Shown one piece after another: positions 9,310 to 16,170 of a stretch of DNA of 64,000 nucleotides. This DNA is from Stenotrophomonas sp. ZAC14D1_NAIMI4_1 (lineage in GTDB: Bacteria > Pseudomonadota > Gammaproteobacteria > Xanthomonadales > Xanthomonadaceae). Both the position numbers and the translations under genes were made by a program. The stretch covers positions 186,001 to 250,000 of the forward strand of contig NZ_CP026001.1 of assembly GCF_003086775.1 (NCBI RefSeq), written 5' to 3'. The notes under the pieces were generated by a model. That model was not told the DNA's origin. It did not search any database and worked only from the letters and a program-made list of their open reading frames with translations. Within the stretch, counting starts at the first letter, position 1; each line of letters opens with the position of its first letter.

Positions 9310-9958
9310 ATCGACCGTACTCCGCCTGAGCATTGCAGGCGCCATCCTTCTGGCCGGCGTGGTCGCGTATCCGTTCGCCCGGGACAGCTGGCAGGACCTG
9401 CAGTCCCGACGTGCCCAGGAGCGCGAATTCGTCGCTGCGGATGACCTCGACCAGCAGGCCATCGTGAGGGCGCTGCTGATCCGGGAGCTTGCCATGGTGG
9501 TGCCCTGTGCACCGTCAGTGGCCTGTCCTGCGCCGGTCATCCACTTTGACCGGAATACGGCAACGCTTCGCCCGCTCAGCGGCGCCGGGCCATGGACGGC
9601 GTACGAGGTGCGATCTGCGCTACCGATGAGGTCCCTGGTCGATACCGGGGATGCATCACTGCCGCCACCCCTGCGGGAACTGCTGCAGCGGCTGGTGCAG
9701 CGCTCAGCAGTGAACGCAGACCCGGCATTGCCGGGCATCATCTATGTGAGCGACCCCACACTCCTGCCGCCGCTGGGCACGCCCCATGCCTGTGACGGGC
9801 CGAGGGGGCCGATGCTGGTGAGGATCAGCAGGGCGGCCGTGCAGGCCTCACAGGGGATGGCACTGGCGCTTGTGGTGCCGACCTACTGTGATCGAAGTGG
9901 GAACACGTGGGTGGCGAGGCTGCAGCGAAATGGCACGCAGTGGCAGGTTGTCGAGTAG
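9281..9958 (+). CDS. Membrane-anchored hypothetical protein
   Basis: About 225 residues. One N-terminal membrane segment (LRLSIAGAILLAGVVAYPFA, about residues 14-33) is followed by a periplasmic domain of about 190 residues with two Cys pairs (VPCAPSVACPAP and later HACDG/TYCDRSG). ATG 9281 or 9293 are possible starts; both overlap the previous gene. The C-terminal part ends WVARLQRNGTQWQVVE, reminiscent of a small beta-sandwich, but I do not recognise a family. Confidence 0.65.
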   Translation: MTSPMPSIRKSTVLRLSIAGAILLAGVVAYPFARDSWQDLQSRRAQEREFVAADDLDQQAIVRALLIRELAMVVPCAPSVACPAPVIHFDRNTATLRPLSGAGPWTAYEVRSALPMRSLVDTGDASLPPPLRELLQRLVQRSAVNADPALPGIIYVSDPTLLPPLGTPHACDGPRGPMLVRISRAAVQASQGMALALVVPTYCDRSGNTWVARLQRNGTQWQVVE

Positions 9959-9973
9959 CCCAGCGGTGATGCA

Positions 9974-9998
9974 GCCGCCGGGCGTGGCCCGGCGCTAC
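9974..9998 (-). repeat. SMAG-type GTAG stem-loop
   Basis: CGCCGGGC-GTG-GCCCGGCG (9976-9994) is a perfect eight-base stem followed by CTAC, that is, a GTAG tip on the minus strand. This is the form of the SMAG palindromic repeats reported in S. maltophilia genomes. It lies between two convergent genes and may end transcription of mesD. Confidence 0.65.
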
Positions 9999-10017
9999 CG
10001 TGGTTGGAAGCGATGCA

Positions 10018-11049
10018 TCACCGCCCGGCCAGCTCCTCGCGCACGATCTGTGCGCCGGCACTGAGCGCCCGCAGCTTGCCGCGCGCCACCTCACGCGACA
10101 GCGGCGCCATGCCGCAGTTGGTGCAGGGGTAGAGCTTGTCGGCATCGACGAACTGCAGCGCCTTGCGCAGGGTGTTGGCCACTTCTTCCGGTGTTTCCAC
10201 CGTGCTGGACGCCACGTCGATGGCACCCACCATCACCTTCTTGCCGCGCACCAGCTCGATCAGGTCGATGGGCACGTGCGAGTTGTGGCATTCCAGCGAG
10301 ATGAGGTCGATGCTGGACTGCTGCAGCTTGGGGAAGGACTCTTCGTACTGGCGCCACTCCGAGCCCAGCGTCTGCTTCCAGTCGGTGTTGGCCTTGATGC
10401 CATAGCCGTAGCAGATGTGCACGGCGGTTTCGCACTTCAGCCCTTCGATCGCGCGCTCCAGGGTCGCCACGCCCCAGTCGTTCACCTCGTCGAAGAACAC
10501 GTTGAAGGCGGGTTCGTCGAACTGGATGATGTCCACGCCTGCGGCTTCCAGCTCCTTCGCTTCCTCGTTGAGGATCTTCGCGAATTCACAGGCCAGCTTT
10601 TCGCGGCTCTTGTAGTGCGCGTCGTACAGCGTGTCGATCATGGTCATCGGGCCGGGCAGCGCCCACTTGATCGGCTGTGCGGTCTGCCGCCGCAGGAACT
10701 TTGCATCCTCGACGAATACGGATTTCGGACGGCTGACCGCACCGACCACGGTCGGCACGCTGGCGTCGTAGCGGTTGCGGATGCGCACGGTCTCGCGCTT
10801 GTCGAAGTCGACGCCGTCGAGGTGTTCGATGAAGGTGGTGACGAAATGCTGCCGTGTCTGCTCGCCGTCGCTGACGATGTCGATGCCGGCGTGCTGCTGT
10901 TCCTGCAGGGACAGGCGCAGCGCGTCGTGCTTGCCTTCGGTCAGTGCTTCATCCTGCAGCTTCCAGGGCGACCAGAGCTTTTCGGGCTCGGCGAGCCAGG
11001 AGGGCTTGGGCAGGCTGCCGGCGGTGGAGGTGGGCAGTAGTTTCTTCAT
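10018..11049 (-). CDS. mesD: Core-MetE type methionine synthase (MesD family)
   Basis: A 343-residue cytoplasmic protein equivalent to the catalytic C-terminal half of MetE, without the folate-binding N-terminal half. The zinc-site residues are visible in order: His and Cys in AVHICYGYG, Glu in LECHNSH and Cys in YPCTNCGMAPLS; IIQFDEPAF is the homocysteine-side motif. The adjacent DUF1852 gene matches the MesD/MesX pair described by Price and colleagues as a folate-independent, oxygen-requiring methionine synthase. It is the third gene of an operon with the FMN reductase and mesX, 42 bases after mesX. The methyl donor cannot be read from sequence. Confidence 0.85.
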   Translation of the reverse strand: MKKLLPTSTAGSLPKPSWLAEPEKLWSPWKLQDEALTEGKHDALRLSLQEQQHAGIDIVSDGEQTRQHFVTTFIEHLDGVDFDKRETVRIRNRYDASVPTVVGAVSRPKSVFVEDAKFLRRQTAQPIKWALPGPMTMIDTLYDAHYKSREKLACEFAKILNEEAKELEAAGVDIIQFDEPAFNVFFDEVNDWGVATLERAIEGLKCETAVHICYGYGIKANTDWKQTLGSEWRQYEESFPKLQQSSIDLISLECHNSHVPIDLIELVRGKKVMVGAIDVASSTVETPEEVANTLRKALQFVDADKLYPCTNCGMAPLSREVARGKLRALSAGAQIVREELAGR

Positions 11050-11091
11050 CGTGTATGGGGTCTTTGTCCTGGGGGAGGGAGATGCGATGGA

Positions 11092-12069
11092 TCAGCGGGC
11101 AGCCCACTGCTCGAGCACGGCGCGGTAGGGCTTGATGAAGTGCTCTTCGGTGAACCTGCCCTGCTTGACCGCCAGCTGGCTGCGCTCTTCGCGGTCGTAG
11201 ACGATGCGGGTGGACGAATAGTCCTGGTGCTTCAGGCTGGGCTGGTAGACCTTGCCGGCCACCGAATTGGCGTTGTAGATCTCCGGGCGGTAGATCTTCT
11301 GGAACGCTTCCATGGTGCTGATGGTGCCGATCAGTTCCAGGTTCGAGTAATCGCCCAGCAGGTCGCCCTGGAAATAGAACGCCAGCGGCGCGACGCTGCC
11401 CGGCGGCATGAAGTAGCGCACCTGCAGGCCCATCTTGTCGAAGTACTGGTCGGTGGGCGAGAACTCGCCCTGGCGGTACTCCACGCCCAGGATGGGATGG
11501 TGGTTCTCGGTGCGGTGGTAGGTCTTGCTGCTGGACACGCTGATGCAGATCACCGGTGCCTTGCTGAAGTTGGCGCGGTAGGCGTCGGACTCCAGGAAGT
11601 GCTTGAACAGCTTGCCGTGCAGATCGCCGAAGCCTTCGGGGATGCCGAACGTCGCCTTGCCCTCGTTGCTGGCCGGCAGCACGACGCTGAAATCGTAGTC
11701 GCGCACGTAGGACGAGAAATTGTTGCCGACGATGCCGTCGATGCGCGTGCCGGTGTGCGTGTCGACGATGGTCGGGCGCAGCACTTCGATCAGCGGGAAC
11801 GGATCGCTGCCTTCATCGCCATCGACGTGCATCTCCACCGAGATGATGTCCAGCTCGACCGCGTAGCGATCCGCGCTGGGGTTGTCCCAGTGCGCCAGAT
11901 CGTTGAAGCGGTTGTTGATCATGCCGATCGTGTTGCGCAGGTTTTCCTGCCGCGAGGCGCCGCGGGCCAGGTTGGCGAAGTTGGTGGTGATGCGCGTGCC
12001 GTCGGCCGGCTGGTAATCCTCGTTGAAGGGGATGCGGGTGATGCGGAAGGTGAAGGCGTCGGTGGTCAT
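11092..12069 (-). CDS. mesX: DUF1852 protein, MesX-type partner of MesD
   Basis: A 325-residue soluble protein (starts TTDAFTFRITRIPFNEDYQP, with the conserved GIVGNNFSSYVRDYDFSVVLP and HRTENHHPILGVEY stretches). From memory the whole length matches DUF1852, the family named MesX because MesD needs it together with oxygen. The several His and Tyr residues in the central part could bind a metal, but that is a guess. It sits between the FMN reductase (18 bases upstream) and mesD (42 bases downstream), so all three are one transcript. Confidence 0.85.
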   Translation of the reverse strand: MTTDAFTFRITRIPFNEDYQPADGTRITTNFANLARGASRQENLRNTIGMINNRFNDLAHWDNPSADRYAVELDIISVEMHVDGDEGSDPFPLIEVLRPTIVDTHTGTRIDGIVGNNFSSYVRDYDFSVVLPASNEGKATFGIPEGFGDLHGKLFKHFLESDAYRANFSKAPVICISVSSSKTYHRTENHHPILGVEYRQGEFSPTDQYFDKMGLQVRYFMPPGSVAPLAFYFQGDLLGDYSNLELIGTISTMEAFQKIYRPEIYNANSVAGKVYQPSLKHQDYSSTRIVYDREERSQLAVKQGRFTEEHFIKPYRAVLEQWAAR

Positions 12070-12087
12070 GGGCGGCGTTCCGGTTGC

Positions 12088-12678
12088 TTAGAGGGCGTCA
12101 GCGGTTTCGGCGGGCACGGGCGCTGGGCGGTGGGACAGCGCCAGCAGGGGCAGGGCCCGCTGCACGGCCAGGTGCGCCCGCTGCAGCAGGGCCTCGTCGT
12201 GCACGCGGCCGTCGGCGAAATCCTTGTCGGTGGCGTAGACGCCCAGCGGCAGGGTGCGTGCCTGGAAGAAGCTGAAGAGCGGCCGCAGCTGGTGGTCGAT
12301 CATCAGCGCGTGGCGCTCGCTGCCGCCGGTGGCGGCCAGCAGGGTGGGGGTGTCGACCAGCGCGTCCTGGTGGATGAAATCGAAGAAGTGCTTGAACAGG
12401 CCGGTGTACGAACCGCGATAGACCGGCGTGGCGACCACCAGCACGTCGGCCTGCTCGACCGTGGCCAGGGCCTGCTCGGCGGCGGCGGGAAGCTGCGAGC
12501 GCCACAGGGCACCGGCCAGCTGCGGGGCCAAATCACCCAGTTCGACCAGGTGCGGTTCGCTGGGCACGTGCTCGCCGATCAGGTCCAGCAGGTGCTCGCA
12601 CAGGGTGGCGGCGCGCGAGGGGCGCTGCAGGCCACCGGAGACGGCGACGATACGGAGGGGGCGGTGGGGAGAAAGCAT
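12088..12678 (-). CDS. msuE: NAD(P)H-dependent FMN reductase, MsuE-like
   Basis: A 196-residue flavodoxin-fold reductase. The phosphate-binding loop is VAVSGGLQRPSRAATL near residue 11, and the TPVYRGSYTGLFKHFFDF motif near residue 84 binds the flavin ring, as in SsuE/MsuE proteins that feed reduced FMN to two-component monooxygenases. No FMNH2-dependent monooxygenase of the SsuD/MsuD type is next to it. Its partners in the operon are mesX and mesD, which suggests that reduced flavin or flavin-linked oxygen chemistry serves methionine synthesis here. The start codon faces the LysR gene across a palindrome. Confidence 0.85.
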   Translation of the reverse strand: MLSPHRPLRIVAVSGGLQRPSRAATLCEHLLDLIGEHVPSEPHLVELGDLAPQLAGALWRSQLPAAAEQALATVEQADVLVVATPVYRGSYTGLFKHFFDFIHQDALVDTPTLLAATGGSERHALMIDHQLRPLFSFFQARTLPLGVYATDKDFADGRVHDEALLQRAHLAVQRALPLLALSHRPAPVPAETADAL

Positions 12679-12704
12679 GTCCCGATGCTAGTCAGCCCTT
12701 CCCA

Positions 12705-12727
12705 TGACGTAAAATGGTTTTACTTCA
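12705..12727. promoter_or_regulatory. Palindromic operator between msuE-mesX-mesD and the LysR gene
   Basis: The only intergenic sequence between the divergent units is 75 bases long and contains TGA-N-GTAAAA-N3-TTTTAC-N-TCA, a 23-base inverted repeat with one mismatched pair outside the 3-base centre. The ends TGA and TTCA recall the TGAA/TTCA arms of MetR sites. It is the best candidate binding site for the adjacent LysR protein. Confidence 0.65.
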
Positions 12728-12753
12728 CACATCCATGAGTGGGATTCATCGAC

Positions 12754-13665
12754 ATGCTGGAACGAATCCACCTGAGCATCGTCCAGCAGGTCGAACTGCA
12801 GGGCTCGCTGACCGCCGCCGCCGGCGTGCTGAACCTGACCCAGTCGGCGCTGAGCCACAGCATGAAGAAGCTGGAGCAGCAGCTGGGCACCGATGTCTGG
12901 CTGCGCGAGGGCCGCAGCCTGCGCCTGACCCAGGCCGGCCAGTACCTGCTGGCGGTGGCCAACCGGGTGCTGCCGCAGCTGGACCTGGCCGAGGAACGGC
13001 TGGGCCAGTTCGCACAGGGCGAACGCGGTTCACTGCGCATCGGCATGGAATGCCACCCCTGCTACCAGTGGCTGCTGAAGATCGTCTCGCCGTACCTGGC
13101 ATCGTGGCCGGACGTGGATGTGGACGTGAAGCAGAAGTTCCAGTTCGGTGGCATCGGTGCCCTGTTCGGCTACGAGATCGACCTGCTGGTAACCCCCGAC
13201 CCGCTGTTGAAGCCGGGCCTGAAGTTCGTTCCCGTGTTCGATTACGAGCAGGTGCTGGTGGTGGCCAAGGACCACGCGCTGGCCAAGGTGGAGTACGTGA
13301 AGCCACGGCAGCTGACCCAGGAAGTGCTGATCAGCTACCCGGTGCCGTTCGAACGCCTGGACATCTACAACCAGTTCCTGCTGCCGGCCGGGGTCACCCC
13401 GCGCCGCCACAAGGCCATCGAAACCACCGACATCATGATGCAGATGGTCGCCAGCGGCCGCGGCGTGGCCGCCATGCCGCGCTGGCTGGTGGAGGAGTAC
13501 GCGGCGCGCATGGACGTGGTGCCGGTGCGCCTGGGTGCCAAAGGCATCCCCAAGCAGATCTACCTGGGTGCGCGCGAGGCGGACACCGGCATCGACTACC
13601 TGCAGGCCTTCGTTGAACTGGCGCGGGGCAGCTCGATCGCCGGCACGCTGCGCGGGGCCACGTGA
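12754..13665 (+). CDS. LysR-type regulator, MetR-like
   Basis: A 303-residue protein. The N-terminal helix-turn-helix (VELQGSLTAAAGVLNLTQSALSHSMKKLEQQLG, quoted in two parts: residues 13-28 and 29-45) is followed by a sensor domain with IGMECHPCYQWLLK, a segment characteristic of MetR, whose co-effector is homocysteine. ATG 12754 gives the usual LysR N-terminus; GTG 12739 in frame is an alternative. It is divergent from msuE-mesX-mesD and its stop codon overlaps the MTHFR-like start (TGATG), so it probably controls both arms of the locus in response to methionine or homocysteine status. Confidence 0.85.
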   Translation: MLERIHLSIVQQVELQGSLTAAAGVLNLTQSALSHSMKKLEQQLGTDVWLREGRSLRLTQAGQYLLAVANRVLPQLDLAEERLGQFAQGERGSLRIGMECHPCYQWLLKIVSPYLASWPDVDVDVKQKFQFGGIGALFGYEIDLLVTPDPLLKPGLKFVPVFDYEQVLVVAKDHALAKVEYVKPRQLTQEVLISYPVPFERLDIYNQFLLPAGVTPRRHKAIETTDIMMQMVASGRGVAAMPRWLVEEYAARMDVVPVRLGAKGIPKQIYLGAREADTGIDYLQAFVELARGSSIAGTLRGAT

Positions 13666-14534
13666 TGCCTGCGGCACCCACGCACGCCGCTCGCGCCTTC
13701 ATCGATGCCTGTTCGCTGGAGGTGAGTGCAAAGGCCATGCCCGCGTTGCACGCCGAAGCGGCCCGCATCGCACCCGGCACGACCATTTCCATTCCTTACC
13801 TGGCCAGCGAGGACGACGACGCGCGGATTGCTGCCGCGCGCCGCGTGCGCGAGCTGGGGCTGCAGCCGATGCCGCACCTGTCGGCACGCCGCATCGGGTC
13901 GCTGGCAGCGCTCGAGCGGTTCATCGCGCGCGCGGTGGGCGAGGCCGGTGTCGAGCAGTGCCTGCTGGTTGCCGGTGATCTGGCCACGCCCGCCGGCCCG
14001 TTTGCCGACAGCGCGTCCCTCATCGACACCGGCCTGCTGGAACGCGCAGGCATCAAGGTGGTTGCCGTCGGCGGGCACCCGGAAGGCCATCCGGTGATGG
14101 GCGCTGACGAGCGCTGGCAGGTGCTGGAGCGCAAGTGCCATGCCATCCAGGCGCGTGGCATGGCGCCGAAGATCATCACCCAGTTCGCCTTCGATGCCGA
14201 CATCGTGCTGGCCTGGCTGGATGCACTGCGCGCCCGTGGCATCGGCCACCCGGTGCTGGTGGGTGTGCCCGGGCCGGCCAGCGTCAGCCGCTTTCTGCGC
14301 TATGCGGCGATGTGCGGCGTGGGTGCCAGCGCATCGATGCTGGCGCGGTATGGCATCTCGATCGGCCGGTTGCTGGGTACCGCCGGGCCGGATGTGTTCG
14401 TGGATCGCCTGGTGGGAGGCCTGACCGAAGCGCATGGGCAGGTCAGCCCGCACCTGTTCCCGTTCGGTGGCATCGCGCCGTCGCTGGACTGGGTGGCGCA
14501 GTACCGCCTGCGCGTGGGTGCTGGGCGGCGTTGA
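13665..14534 (+). CDS. Methylenetetrahydrofolate reductase-like protein
   Basis: A 289-residue TIM-barrel protein related to MetF, the flavoprotein that reduces 5,10-methylene-THF to 5-methyl-THF. MTHFR-like features include QCLLVAGDLATPAGPF (the Asp that contacts flavin N1), VVAVGGHPEGHP, KIITQFAFDAD and a C-terminal HLFPFGGIAPSLDW. The usual N-terminal EFFPPK is replaced by SLEVSAK, so the protein is divergent although the Glu may be kept. It overlaps the LysR stop codon by one base and belongs with the methionine locus. Whether it makes methyl-THF or another methyl carrier is open. Confidence 0.78.
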   Translation: MPAAPTHAARAFIDACSLEVSAKAMPALHAEAARIAPGTTISIPYLASEDDDARIAAARRVRELGLQPMPHLSARRIGSLAALERFIARAVGEAGVEQCLLVAGDLATPAGPFADSASLIDTGLLERAGIKVVAVGGHPEGHPVMGADERWQVLERKCHAIQARGMAPKIITQFAFDADIVLAWLDALRARGIGHPVLVGVPGPASVSRFLRYAAMCGVGASASMLARYGISIGRLLGTAGPDVFVDRLVGGLTEAHGQVSPHLFPFGGIAPSLDWVAQYRLRVGAGRR

Positions 14535-14558
14535 CCTTTGGACCGCCTCGCTCATCAG

Positions 14559-15188
14559 CTACAGGTTGGGATAGATCACTGTCCACTGGATGATGCTCAG
14601 GTTGATCAGACCGTGCACAACCGCCCGTTGCCACGTGTCCAGCGAAAATGTGTAGATGCACGCGCAGATGATGATTGAGAACAGGAAGGCCAAAATCCTC
14701 GCATCGGGGTGGACCCATGCGAAGAGAAGGCTGACAGCAACCGACGCAACGATCCTGCCAAGGTAGTGCGCAGCGCCGGTGAGAAGGAGGTGTCGTACCA
14801 CTTTCTCTTCGAACAGCGGAGCCGCAACACAGCTCGTAAACACGCCCAGCAGGTAGTAAGCGAGTGGGATCTGATCCCAGGTCAGGAACTGCGAAGTATT
14901 GCGGCTGGGGTACCCGATAAAAGCAATCCATAGCGCGCCACCGAGCAGGCCAAGCAGCACGACAAGTGCTGACGTCCTTGCGGTCCAGCGTGCCCTTGGC
15001 TCGTTCGGGAACATCCATAAGCACACGAGAAAAGCAGCCAATTCCGTCAGTGCTTTTGAGCCGAATACGTCGAGCGCCTCGAGGACGAAATGGCCCAGGC
15101 CCACTGCAAGGGTCGCCATCCCCGCGGCGAAAACCCTGTTCTCAGGCTTATCTGCGGGTCTCCATGACAAGGCTTGGAGGAAGGTCAT
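14559..15188 (-). CDS. CPBP-family intramembrane metalloprotease (CAAX protease-like)
   Basis: About 209 residues with six or so hydrophobic segments. The three conserved sites of the CPBP family are present: EEKVVRHLLLT (EExxxR motif), SLLFAWVH and RAVVHGLINLS, whose Glu and His residues would bind zinc inside the membrane. ATG 15188 is used; ATG 15218 (ten residues longer) is possible. The gene stands alone on the minus strand, so its target, which in other bacteria may be a bacteriocin or signalling peptide, cannot be inferred. Confidence 0.8.
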   Translation of the reverse strand: MTFLQALSWRPADKPENRVFAAGMATLAVGLGHFVLEALDVFGSKALTELAAFLVCLWMFPNEPRARWTARTSALVVLLGLLGGALWIAFIGYPSRNTSQFLTWDQIPLAYYLLGVFTSCVAAPLFEEKVVRHLLLTGAAHYLGRIVASVAVSLLFAWVHPDARILAFLFSIIICACIYTFSLDTWQRAVVHGLINLSIIQWTVIYPNL

Positions 15189-15396
15189 GCCGATTTCTCG
15201 TTGAAGACGTTGACCCATGATGTGCCAACGCTCACCGTGCCTGCCTAAGCTGGACGCTTGGCGGCTGCACGGTGATAAACGAGCAACACGAAAACCACCC
15301 CGGGAAATCCAGAAATGGCTGCTTGAGCCGCTTCCCGCCAGATCGACCACCGATACATCAAGAGCAAGCGTTTCATCGCTTGCCCTGTCCGCGAAC

Positions 15397-16170
15397 CTAC
15401 TTGCCTGCGTGCTGGGCTTGGGTCATTTCAGCGCCCTTCTCCGCACCACGGCTCTGCGCAAACGCAGGGAACGTCTTCTCGATCGAATCCTTGTCCGGCA
15501 GCACGTAGAACACGCCGCCCTTATCGAACGTCGACTGCACCACCTGCTCATAGAAACCGGGGCTGACATTGATGCAGCCATGGGTCACGCGGTTGTCGTC
15601 CGGCGTCGGCGTTGCCAGCCGCTCGGCGCGCTTTTCCTTCGGGGTGCCCGGCGGCAGCGGGTGCATCGAGACGGCGGAATCGTAGTCCACCCACAGCACG
15701 CGGCCGGCGTCGTCGGACGGGCCGTAGCCACCAATGAAGCGGCCTGCAGGGGTCGTGCGGTCGTGGCCGGGAATCGCGCTCAGCGCGACCTTGGCCACGT
15801 TCGGGGCGGAGTGATCGCCCTTGGCCGAACCAAACAGTGCGGGTGCAGCGCCGCGCAGCTTGCCGTCGCTGCCAAAGACCAGCACCTGTGCGGCGGCCTT
15901 GTCCATGATCGCGAACGGATAGCCCTGGCTGTCCTTGCTGGCGACCACCCAGCCGGCGAGTTCGATCACCGTCTCGGACACCTCCTGTCCTTCCGGCAGC
16001 TCATCGACGGCGGCCGTGGGTTGCGTAGCGGCATCCTTGGCGCCCTTGGCGCTGGCCACGCCGGTACCGGCCAGTGCCAGCGCAAGGGTCAGCGCGACGC
16101 AGGCGGTGCGGATTGCGGGGGATGTGTACGTACGGATGGCGCGGTTCCTCGGATGAATACGGTGATTCAA
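15397..16170 (-). CDS. L,D-transpeptidase (YkuD family), exported
   Basis: Up to 257 residues with a signal peptide (TACVALTLALALAGTGVASA) and a YkuD catalytic motif, HGCINVSPGFYE, near residue 198, where Cys is the nucleophile and the upstream His/Gly complete the site. Such enzymes make 3-3 cross-links or attach lipoproteins to peptidoglycan in the periplasm. The frame has no ATG or GTG before the signal peptide. TTG at 16168-16170 is the annotated start but abuts a terminator hairpin and lacks a ribosome site; ATC at 16135-16137 is preceded seven bases away by GAGGAA and would give a tidy signal peptide. The upstream lpp-like gene is a plausible functional partner. Confidence 0.85.
   Translation of the reverse strand: MNHRIHPRNRAIRTYTSPAIRTACVALTLALALAGTGVASAKGAKDAATQPTAAVDELPEGQEVSETVIELAGWVVASKDSQGYPFAIMDKAAAQVLVFGSDGKLRGAAPALFGSAKGDHSAPNVAKVALSAIPGHDRTTPAGRFIGGYGPSDDAGRVLWVDYDSAVSMHPLPPGTPKEKRAERLATPTPDDNRVTHGCINVSPGFYEQVVQSTFDKGGVFYVLPDKDSIEKTFPAFAQSRGAEKGAEMTQAQHAGK

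Follow-up and report, generated by a model that had tools for sequence, protein, structure and literature searches.

The locus and its genes

The locus described here lies in a stretch of 64,000 nucleotides from Stenotrophomonas sp. ZAC14D1_NAIMI4_1 (G000:C1:186001-250000), hereafter the window, with positions counted from its first letter; the genome is a single contig of 4.70 Mb. The locus has two divergent arms. The leftward arm carries mesD, mesX and the gene of an MsuE-type flavin mononucleotide (FMN) reductase, and the rightward arm carries the gene of a MetR-like LysR-family regulator (lysR) followed by a homologue of methylenetetrahydrofolate reductase (MTHFR). The initial annotation, made from the letters of the DNA alone, had described these as five genes around one divergent control region, and this description stands: all five open reading frames are present, each matches its family, and the divergent start codons are separated by a shared gap of 75 bp. 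Its report of gene overlaps is correct for lysR and the MTHFR gene, whose stop and start codons meet in TGATG at 13663-13667. This is the sole overlap of the locus, mesD/mesX and mesX/reductase being separated by gaps of 42 and 18 nt. Judged from homologues, the start of lysR is placed at the ATG at 12754, and the MTHFR gene probably starts at the ATG at 13665.

The recurrence of the five genes at other mesX loci shows that the arrangement exceeds chance. Among 80 named mesX loci, the best 80 of 351, the reductase is a neighbour in 77, a LysR gene of at least 80% identity in 74, and an MTHFR-like gene in 58 (57 full, one fragment). Since the best 80 of 351 are biased to close relatives, an even phylum sample of 398 genomes provides the fairer count; in that sample MTHFR was counted over 200 bits, and 30 of the 44 mesX loci were fetched with 1.5 kb on each side.

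MesD scores 703.5 bits against NF006589 (NCBIfam cut-off 392), and the only Pfam domain over cut-off is the catalytic one. The zinc-site motifs read in it earlier were borne out: of the residues for zinc and homocysteine in E. coli MetE, MesD keeps seven of seven (S12, E63, D178, H211, C213, E253 and C312). MesX matches PF08908 with 604.4 bits (Pfam cut-off 25) and shows a mean column identity of 78% in an alignment of 36 sequences; a search of PDB chains gave no solved relative at E<=10. The reductase scores 253.3 bits against TIGR03566 (MsuE), above the cut-off of 212.5.

MesD and MesX make methionine with O2 and need neither methyl-tetrahydrofolate (methyl-THF) nor B12 (Price, Deutschbauer, Arkin 2021, PMC7857596). 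The window resembles the system of that paper in having the same two adjacent proteins, a flavin reductase nearby and MetH in the genome, and differs from it by a second arm with a MetR-like regulator, a conserved site and an MTHFR of the type found in Sphingobium sp. SYK-6. The same paper mentions a diverged MTHFR in Acinetobacter baylyi (ACIAD1783) and a Pseudomonas putida relative that had no phenotype across 101 fitness experiments; the excerpts consulted mention no MTHFR beside mesD. MesD/MesX, their need for O2 and the flavin-reductase neighbour are thus already published, and the MTHFR in the locus is new. The open-access literature searched gave no link between the SYK-6 type of MTHFR and mesD/mesX; the genome survey of Yu et al. 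2025 may mention one.

Table 1. Features of the locus, in window positions
Feature	Position	Strand	Identification
mesD, core methionine synthase without folate domain, 343 aa	10018..11049	-	NF006589, PF01717; PDB relative 3rpd
mesX (DUF1852), putative oxygenase partner of MesD, 325 aa	11092..12069	-	PF08908
MsuE-type NAD(P)H:FMN reductase, 196 aa	12088..12678	-	TIGR03566
Operator-like near-palindrome between the arms, conserved	12705..12727	.	TGAAGTAAAACCATTTTACGTCA on minus strand; consensus TGAANTAANACCATTTTACNTCA
lysR, MetR-like LysR-family regulator	12754..13665	+	PF00126/PF03466; similarity to E. coli MetR
SYK-6-type (S6MTHFR-like) MTHFR homologue	13665..14534	+	PDB 7xg9 match; start overlaps lysR stop

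The MTHFR homologue resembles the SYK-6 enzyme

The window MTHFR is a member of PF02219, for which it scores only 39.6 bits (Pfam), and it shares the PExHP and QF motifs with canonical flavin adenine dinucleotide (FAD)-dependent MetF. It falls outside canonical MetF in scoring 35.9 bits against TIGR00676 (cut-off 293.7) and in having no EFFPP motif. Among PDB chains its match to 7xg9 reaches 226.7 bits, and its best match to a canonical MTHFR 45 bits. The 7xg9 chain is the protein of Sphingobium sp. SYK-6 (100% identity over the 275 residues compared), the S6MTHFR of Sphingobium lignivorans SYK-6. The loss of FFPP noticed in the initial annotation was confirmed: SLEVSAK stands where SFEFFPPR is expected, and the SYK-6 enzyme is likewise without FFPP and shares AGD for RGD. 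The glutamate left in the window protein may match the catalytic Glu28 of the E. coli enzyme; MAFFT did not align the two.

In a quick maximum-likelihood tree of 42 rows (18 of its 39 inner branches open, several rows long-branched), the 22 sampled mesX-linked MTHFRs and the copy from genome G254 form one clade, with a value of 100 in the Shimodaira–Hasegawa-like approximate likelihood ratio test. This clade lies on the SYK-6 side, far from the E. coli enzyme and from the canonical MetF of the window genome itself, which is encoded elsewhere (G000:C1:831044-831868). By sequence and tree, we assign the window MTHFR to the SYK-6 branch, not to canonical MetF. A flavin-independent MTHFR as the cause of the FFPP loss was considered and not adopted, because the best match, the SYK-6 enzyme, is described as FAD-reducing. 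Among the 19 PDB matches at E<=1, in a listing that carries no organisms, no mycobacterial flavin-independent chain was recognised.

For the MTHFR subfamily typified by SYK-6, oxidation of CH3-THF to CH2-THF is the preferred reaction (review PMC13001107), and the SYK-6 enzyme itself has been assayed and works in this direction together with LigM (authors' conference abstract PMC12585457). The SYK-6 gene is coupled to this THF-dependent O-demethylase, whereas the partners of the window gene are mesD/mesX and a MetR-like regulator. The neighbours of relatives outside the mesX loci mostly belong to oxidative one-carbon (C1) routes. At the six nearest outside loci (L165-L170, 40-53% identity), a GCV_T/LigM-type gene stands within ~1.2 kb in four cases, AdoHcyase and a PurU-like gene are found in the fifth, and the sixth has a LysR gene. 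An aminomethyltransferase-type gene and PurU were present at all three plasmid loci opened (of 80 records, 45-55% identity), and FolD at two of them. The 80 plasmid records with SYK-6-type relatives include 25 from Rhizobium, 23 from Agrobacterium and two listed as Escherichia, and 44 of the 80 are predicted to be conjugative.

The MTHFR gene follows mesX in a set of lineages

The MTHFR is a strong partner of mesX in one lineage set and is not a general component of the MesD/MesX system. Within Stenotrophomonas (61 genomes), an MTHFR over 370 bits is present in 30 of 31 genomes with mesX and in none of 30 without it, and all 30 copies lie on the same contig as mesX, within 3 kb. The lone mesX-containing genome without MTHFR is G031; in G051 the search output shows the copy interrupted by a single in-frame stop. 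A mesX-free genome, G049, has an MTHFR-like match of 20-26 residues at 60-70% identity (G049:C116:13922-13996, L186) with no gene of the module nearby, and was counted as lacking MTHFR. In the phylum sample, mesX occurs in 44 genomes and MTHFR in 11; both occur in five, four Stenotrophomonas and G254.

By genus, the named mesX loci have MTHFR in Stenotrophomonas (23/23, including L101, titled Pseudomonas hibiscicola), Xanthomonas (14/15), Janthinobacterium (7/14), Achromobacter (6/13, including the fragment, L109), Bordetella (4/5), Luteibacter (2/2), Burkholderia (1/1) and Corticibacter (1/1). The loci of Pseudoxanthomonas (2), Comamonas (1), Cupriavidus (1), Corticimicrobacter (1) and Pseudaminobacter (1) are free of it.

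G254 has lysR, queH and MTHFR at a contig end (L171, L172) with no mesX on that contig. Its only mesX lies on another contig, where its neighbours are a mesD of 57% identity and a gene of the LacI type; this may be another kind of mesDX cluster under different regulation. G142, which has an intact mesX elsewhere, shows a further pair of partial matches to MesX, one of them interrupted by a stop (G142:C1:2175963-2176446), possibly a decayed second mesX.

The regulator and a shared operator-like site

The LysR protein is 40% identical to E. coli MetR over 295 residues (E 6e-71). Its best NCBIfam match is the MetR model NF011950 at 220.3 bits, below the cut-off of 382, and it is therefore called MetR-like rather than MetR. 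As in E. coli metR-metE, a LysR regulator is divergent from the operon of a B12-independent methionine synthase; unlike there, the synthase is MesD, not MetE, and the regulator gene is followed by an overlapping MTHFR gene.

The gap between the arms holds a 23-bp near-palindrome. Visual inspection recognised it between the divergent genes at 76 of the 80 named mesX loci; a scripted score found it in 74 with <=3 mismatches in a 15-bp core, the match at L153 being probably due to chance. In a scan of 43 whole genomes (one assembly twice, G012=G492) at <=3 mismatches, the site was found in 31 of 32 genomes with mesX, as a single copy in 27 of the 31, and in none of 11 Stenotrophomonas genomes without mesX, and the reversed pattern matched nowhere in the 43. 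The window genome carries one copy. In Burkholderia paludis and Achromobacter kerstersii, two weaker copies stand immediately before metE, and the latter genome has an unassigned third weak copy; there is no such copy before metE in the two Stenotrophomonas metE loci examined, nor at <=7 mismatches in the E. coli metR-metE stretch. This predicted operator, conserved across genera at mesX loci and present in weaker form before some metE genes, points to one putative MetR-type regulon.

Riboswitch control was set aside, since there is no Rfam match at gathering score in 9500-15500, and no sigma-70-like promoter was found in 12000-13000. The genome of Xanthomonas phaseoli has two copies each of the operator-like site, of QueH and of the MTHFR-like match (G491:C1:42464 and 5169273), as if the module were duplicated. 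The six frames flanking the locus match a TonB-dependent receptor, a CAAX-protease-like protein or a pentapeptide-repeat protein, or have no match.

MetE, MetH and MetF in the same genomes

A survey of the other methionine genes covered 80 genomes, of which 77 are distinct. All but one, the metagenome-assembled genome G465, have canonical MetF (79 of 80). MetH is matched in 77 at E<=1e-60, with 76 of them passing the family cut-off; the genomes without it are G012/G492 (Stenotrophomonas mori) and G494. MetE is present in 52. The window genome has MetH, canonical MetF and MesD and no MetE. Its MetH (G000:C1:2932719-2936329) is spread over two neighbouring frames; several other Stenotrophomonas have both parts in one frame.

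MetE was compared in 10 of the 31 mesX-containing and 20 of the 30 mesX-free Stenotrophomonas genomes, picked before the MetE search, and is lacking in 8 of the 10 compared with 3 of the 20 (Fisher p 0.001). The two mesX-containing genomes with MetE are G031, without MTHFR, and G041, with MTHFR. Stenotrophomonas mori (G012:C1, L152) keeps MetF, mesD, mesX and MTHFR and has no match to MetH (E<=1e-60) or to the MetE N-domain (E<=1e-10); MesD may be its only methionine synthase.

QueH, an alternative to the cobamide-dependent epoxyqueuosine reductase (PMC6461909), is encoded within 1 kb of lysR or MTHFR at 14 of the 80 named loci (11 Xanthomonas, Burkholderia, Corticibacter and Pseudoxanthomonas winnipegensis, the last without MTHFR) and 9-10 kb away at two more, those of Luteibacter and S. 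mori. Among 50 distinct genomes with QueH, 13 have it no more than 2.5 kb from metE (11 Stenotrophomonas and 2 Janthinobacterium, by distances counted by hand from search listings) and a further eight inside the mesDX cluster. It is beside neither in the other 29, which include the window genome (G000:C1:291761) and the 9-10 kb cases of Luteibacter and S. mori. In G031:C26 (L184) and G002:C39 (L185), queH follows metE on the same strand at ~100 bp, a likely metE-queH operon pairing B12-independent enzymes.

A proposed methyl-THF valve in a B12-free methionine module

Without a methionine synthase to take it away, methyl-THF is regarded as nearly a dead end. MesD leaves methyl-THF unused while MetF keeps making it, so that a cell relying on MesD/MesX would lack an outlet for it. 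We propose that the locus is a MetR-controlled, B12-free methionine module in which the MTHFR drains methyl-THF while MetH is idle, a reading to which we give a rough probability of 0.48 and for which the direction of the reaction and its physiology are what we infer. When B12 is short, MetH would stop, homocysteine would rise and the MetR-like protein would switch on both arms. The FMN reductase would supply reduced flavin to MesX, MesX would use O2 to provide a non-folate methyl donor for MesD, and the SYK-6-type MTHFR would oxidise methyl-THF back to methylene-THF, freeing the folate pool from the methyl form. In this way the module would join a methionine synthase that works independently of folate to a valve relieving the methylfolate trap. 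That reduced flavin may feed MesX, as the initial annotation suggested, fits the locus and is not new, having already been proposed from gene neighbourhood (PMC7857596). In Acinetobacter, B12 lowers mesX by ~8 log2 units and the reductase by 2.5 (PMC12892962). In sulfa-treated E. coli and Mycobacterium smegmatis, and also in Pseudomonas aeruginosa, 5-methyl-THF accumulates when MetH or the supply of B12 is lost, and deletion or overexpression of metE left sulfa sensitivity unchanged in M. smegmatis and S. typhimurium (Guzzo et al., PMC5070874). A wider version of the proposal, which we put forward more tentatively, is a beta- and gammaproteobacterial regulon in which MesD/MesX and a trap-releasing methyl-THF oxidase, joined in several genera by QueH, would answer to one MetR-like regulator and operator.

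Several observations weigh against the proposed valve. Oxidation of methyl-THF by the window MTHFR is itself a prediction. The published partner of the branch is absent, as there is no THF-dependent demethylase beside the gene: a search at E<=1e-5 for GCV_T/LigM-type genes gave nothing in either the window or the 80 named mesX loci (up to 21 kb), and none of the five genes or the six neighbouring frames has a GCV_T domain. The MTHFR also appears to be optional, since it is missing from 39 of the 44 mesX genomes of the phylum sample (one of the 39, G335, has a 143-bit relative) and from 22 of the 80 named loci. The need for a valve may moreover be mild, judging from the results of Guzzo et al. 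(PMC5070874): the trap was measured in sulfa-treated cells, non-methyl folates in trapped bacteria went down only modestly or not at all, and MetE prevents the trap in M. tuberculosis without B12. S. mori retains MetF without a user of methyl-THF, which the valve does not explain.

The distribution of MetE is a further difficulty. MetE should likewise relieve the trap, and G041 (L105) has mesX, MTHFR and MetE together. Outside Stenotrophomonas, MetE occurs in 16 of 24 mesX genomes with MTHFR and in 16 of 23 without it (Fisher p 1), so that the simple prediction that genomes with MTHFR lack MetE failed there. This count took 50 of the 60 loci L104-L163, dropped L105 (G041), L152 (G012) and L155 (G051), and set the fragment L109 as MTHFR-free. 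The ten loci left out (L118, L123, L132, L133, L138, L139, L145, L146, L149 and L151) all have MTHFR, and because eight of them are Xanthomonas the raw count is tilted against an association of MTHFR with the lack of MetE; all seven Xanthomonas tested are without MetE. A tree-based pair test of MTHFR against MetE had too few informative pairs.

Alternative explanations

The MTHFR could instead be a second, forward enzyme that supplies methyl-THF to MetH when B12 returns or where canonical MetF fails. Its membership of PF02219, the presence of MetH in nearly all surveyed genomes and the position of E. coli metR next to metE, a methyl-THF user, are consistent with this. A second forward MetF would however be redundant where canonical MetF is already encoded, as it is in all but one of the surveyed genomes, the studied member of the branch prefers the reverse direction, and the gene is tied to a folate-independent synthase, so that we consider a forward role unlikely. 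Rather improbable, in our estimate, is a role within the MesX route, in which the MTHFR would make, carry or recycle the methyl donor of MesD, for example on an unusual pterin. In its favour are the close linkage with mesX among Stenotrophomonas, Xanthomonas and several betaproteobacterial genera, the predicted operator common to both arms, and the arrangement in Luteibacter and S. mori, where MTHFR and the mesX operon diverge directly from each other. Against it, mesD and mesX alone rescue an E. coli metF deletion (Price 2021, PMC7857596), and no maker of methyl-THF is therefore needed; an MTHFR absent from most mesX genomes of the phylum sample cannot be a general part of MesX chemistry. The initial annotation had suggested such a role, in which the MTHFR may make or recycle the donor, and on these grounds, together with the near-universal MetF and the reverse-type branch, we find that suggestion unsupported in the form in which it was put. 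The co-occurrence it had expected was found for the reductase at the named loci and for the MTHFR within Stenotrophomonas, but not for the MTHFR across the phylum sample.

The nearest outside relatives, with LigM-type demethylases, PurU and FolD beside them, raise a different prospect, that of a C1-salvage enzyme that converts methyl-THF from an unlinked THF-dependent demethylase acting on aromatics or betaine-like compounds into methylene-THF, and that came to be placed here through shared sulfur and methionine control. The lack of a GCV_T/LigM-type match in the window and at the named mesX loci, in a search that did not extend to unlinked demethylases elsewhere, and the way in which MTHFR tracks mesX in the Stenotrophomonas sample make this the least likely of the explanations considered.

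Implications

If the MTHFR does act as a valve for methyl-THF, this would explain why the gene follows mesX in some lineages, and it would give the 'reverse' MTHFR branch a physiological role beyond lignin degradation. When B12 is short, methyl-folate should build up in a cell whose MetF stays active while its methionine is made without folate. The native site, the reductase and the regulator suggest when MesX works and with what.

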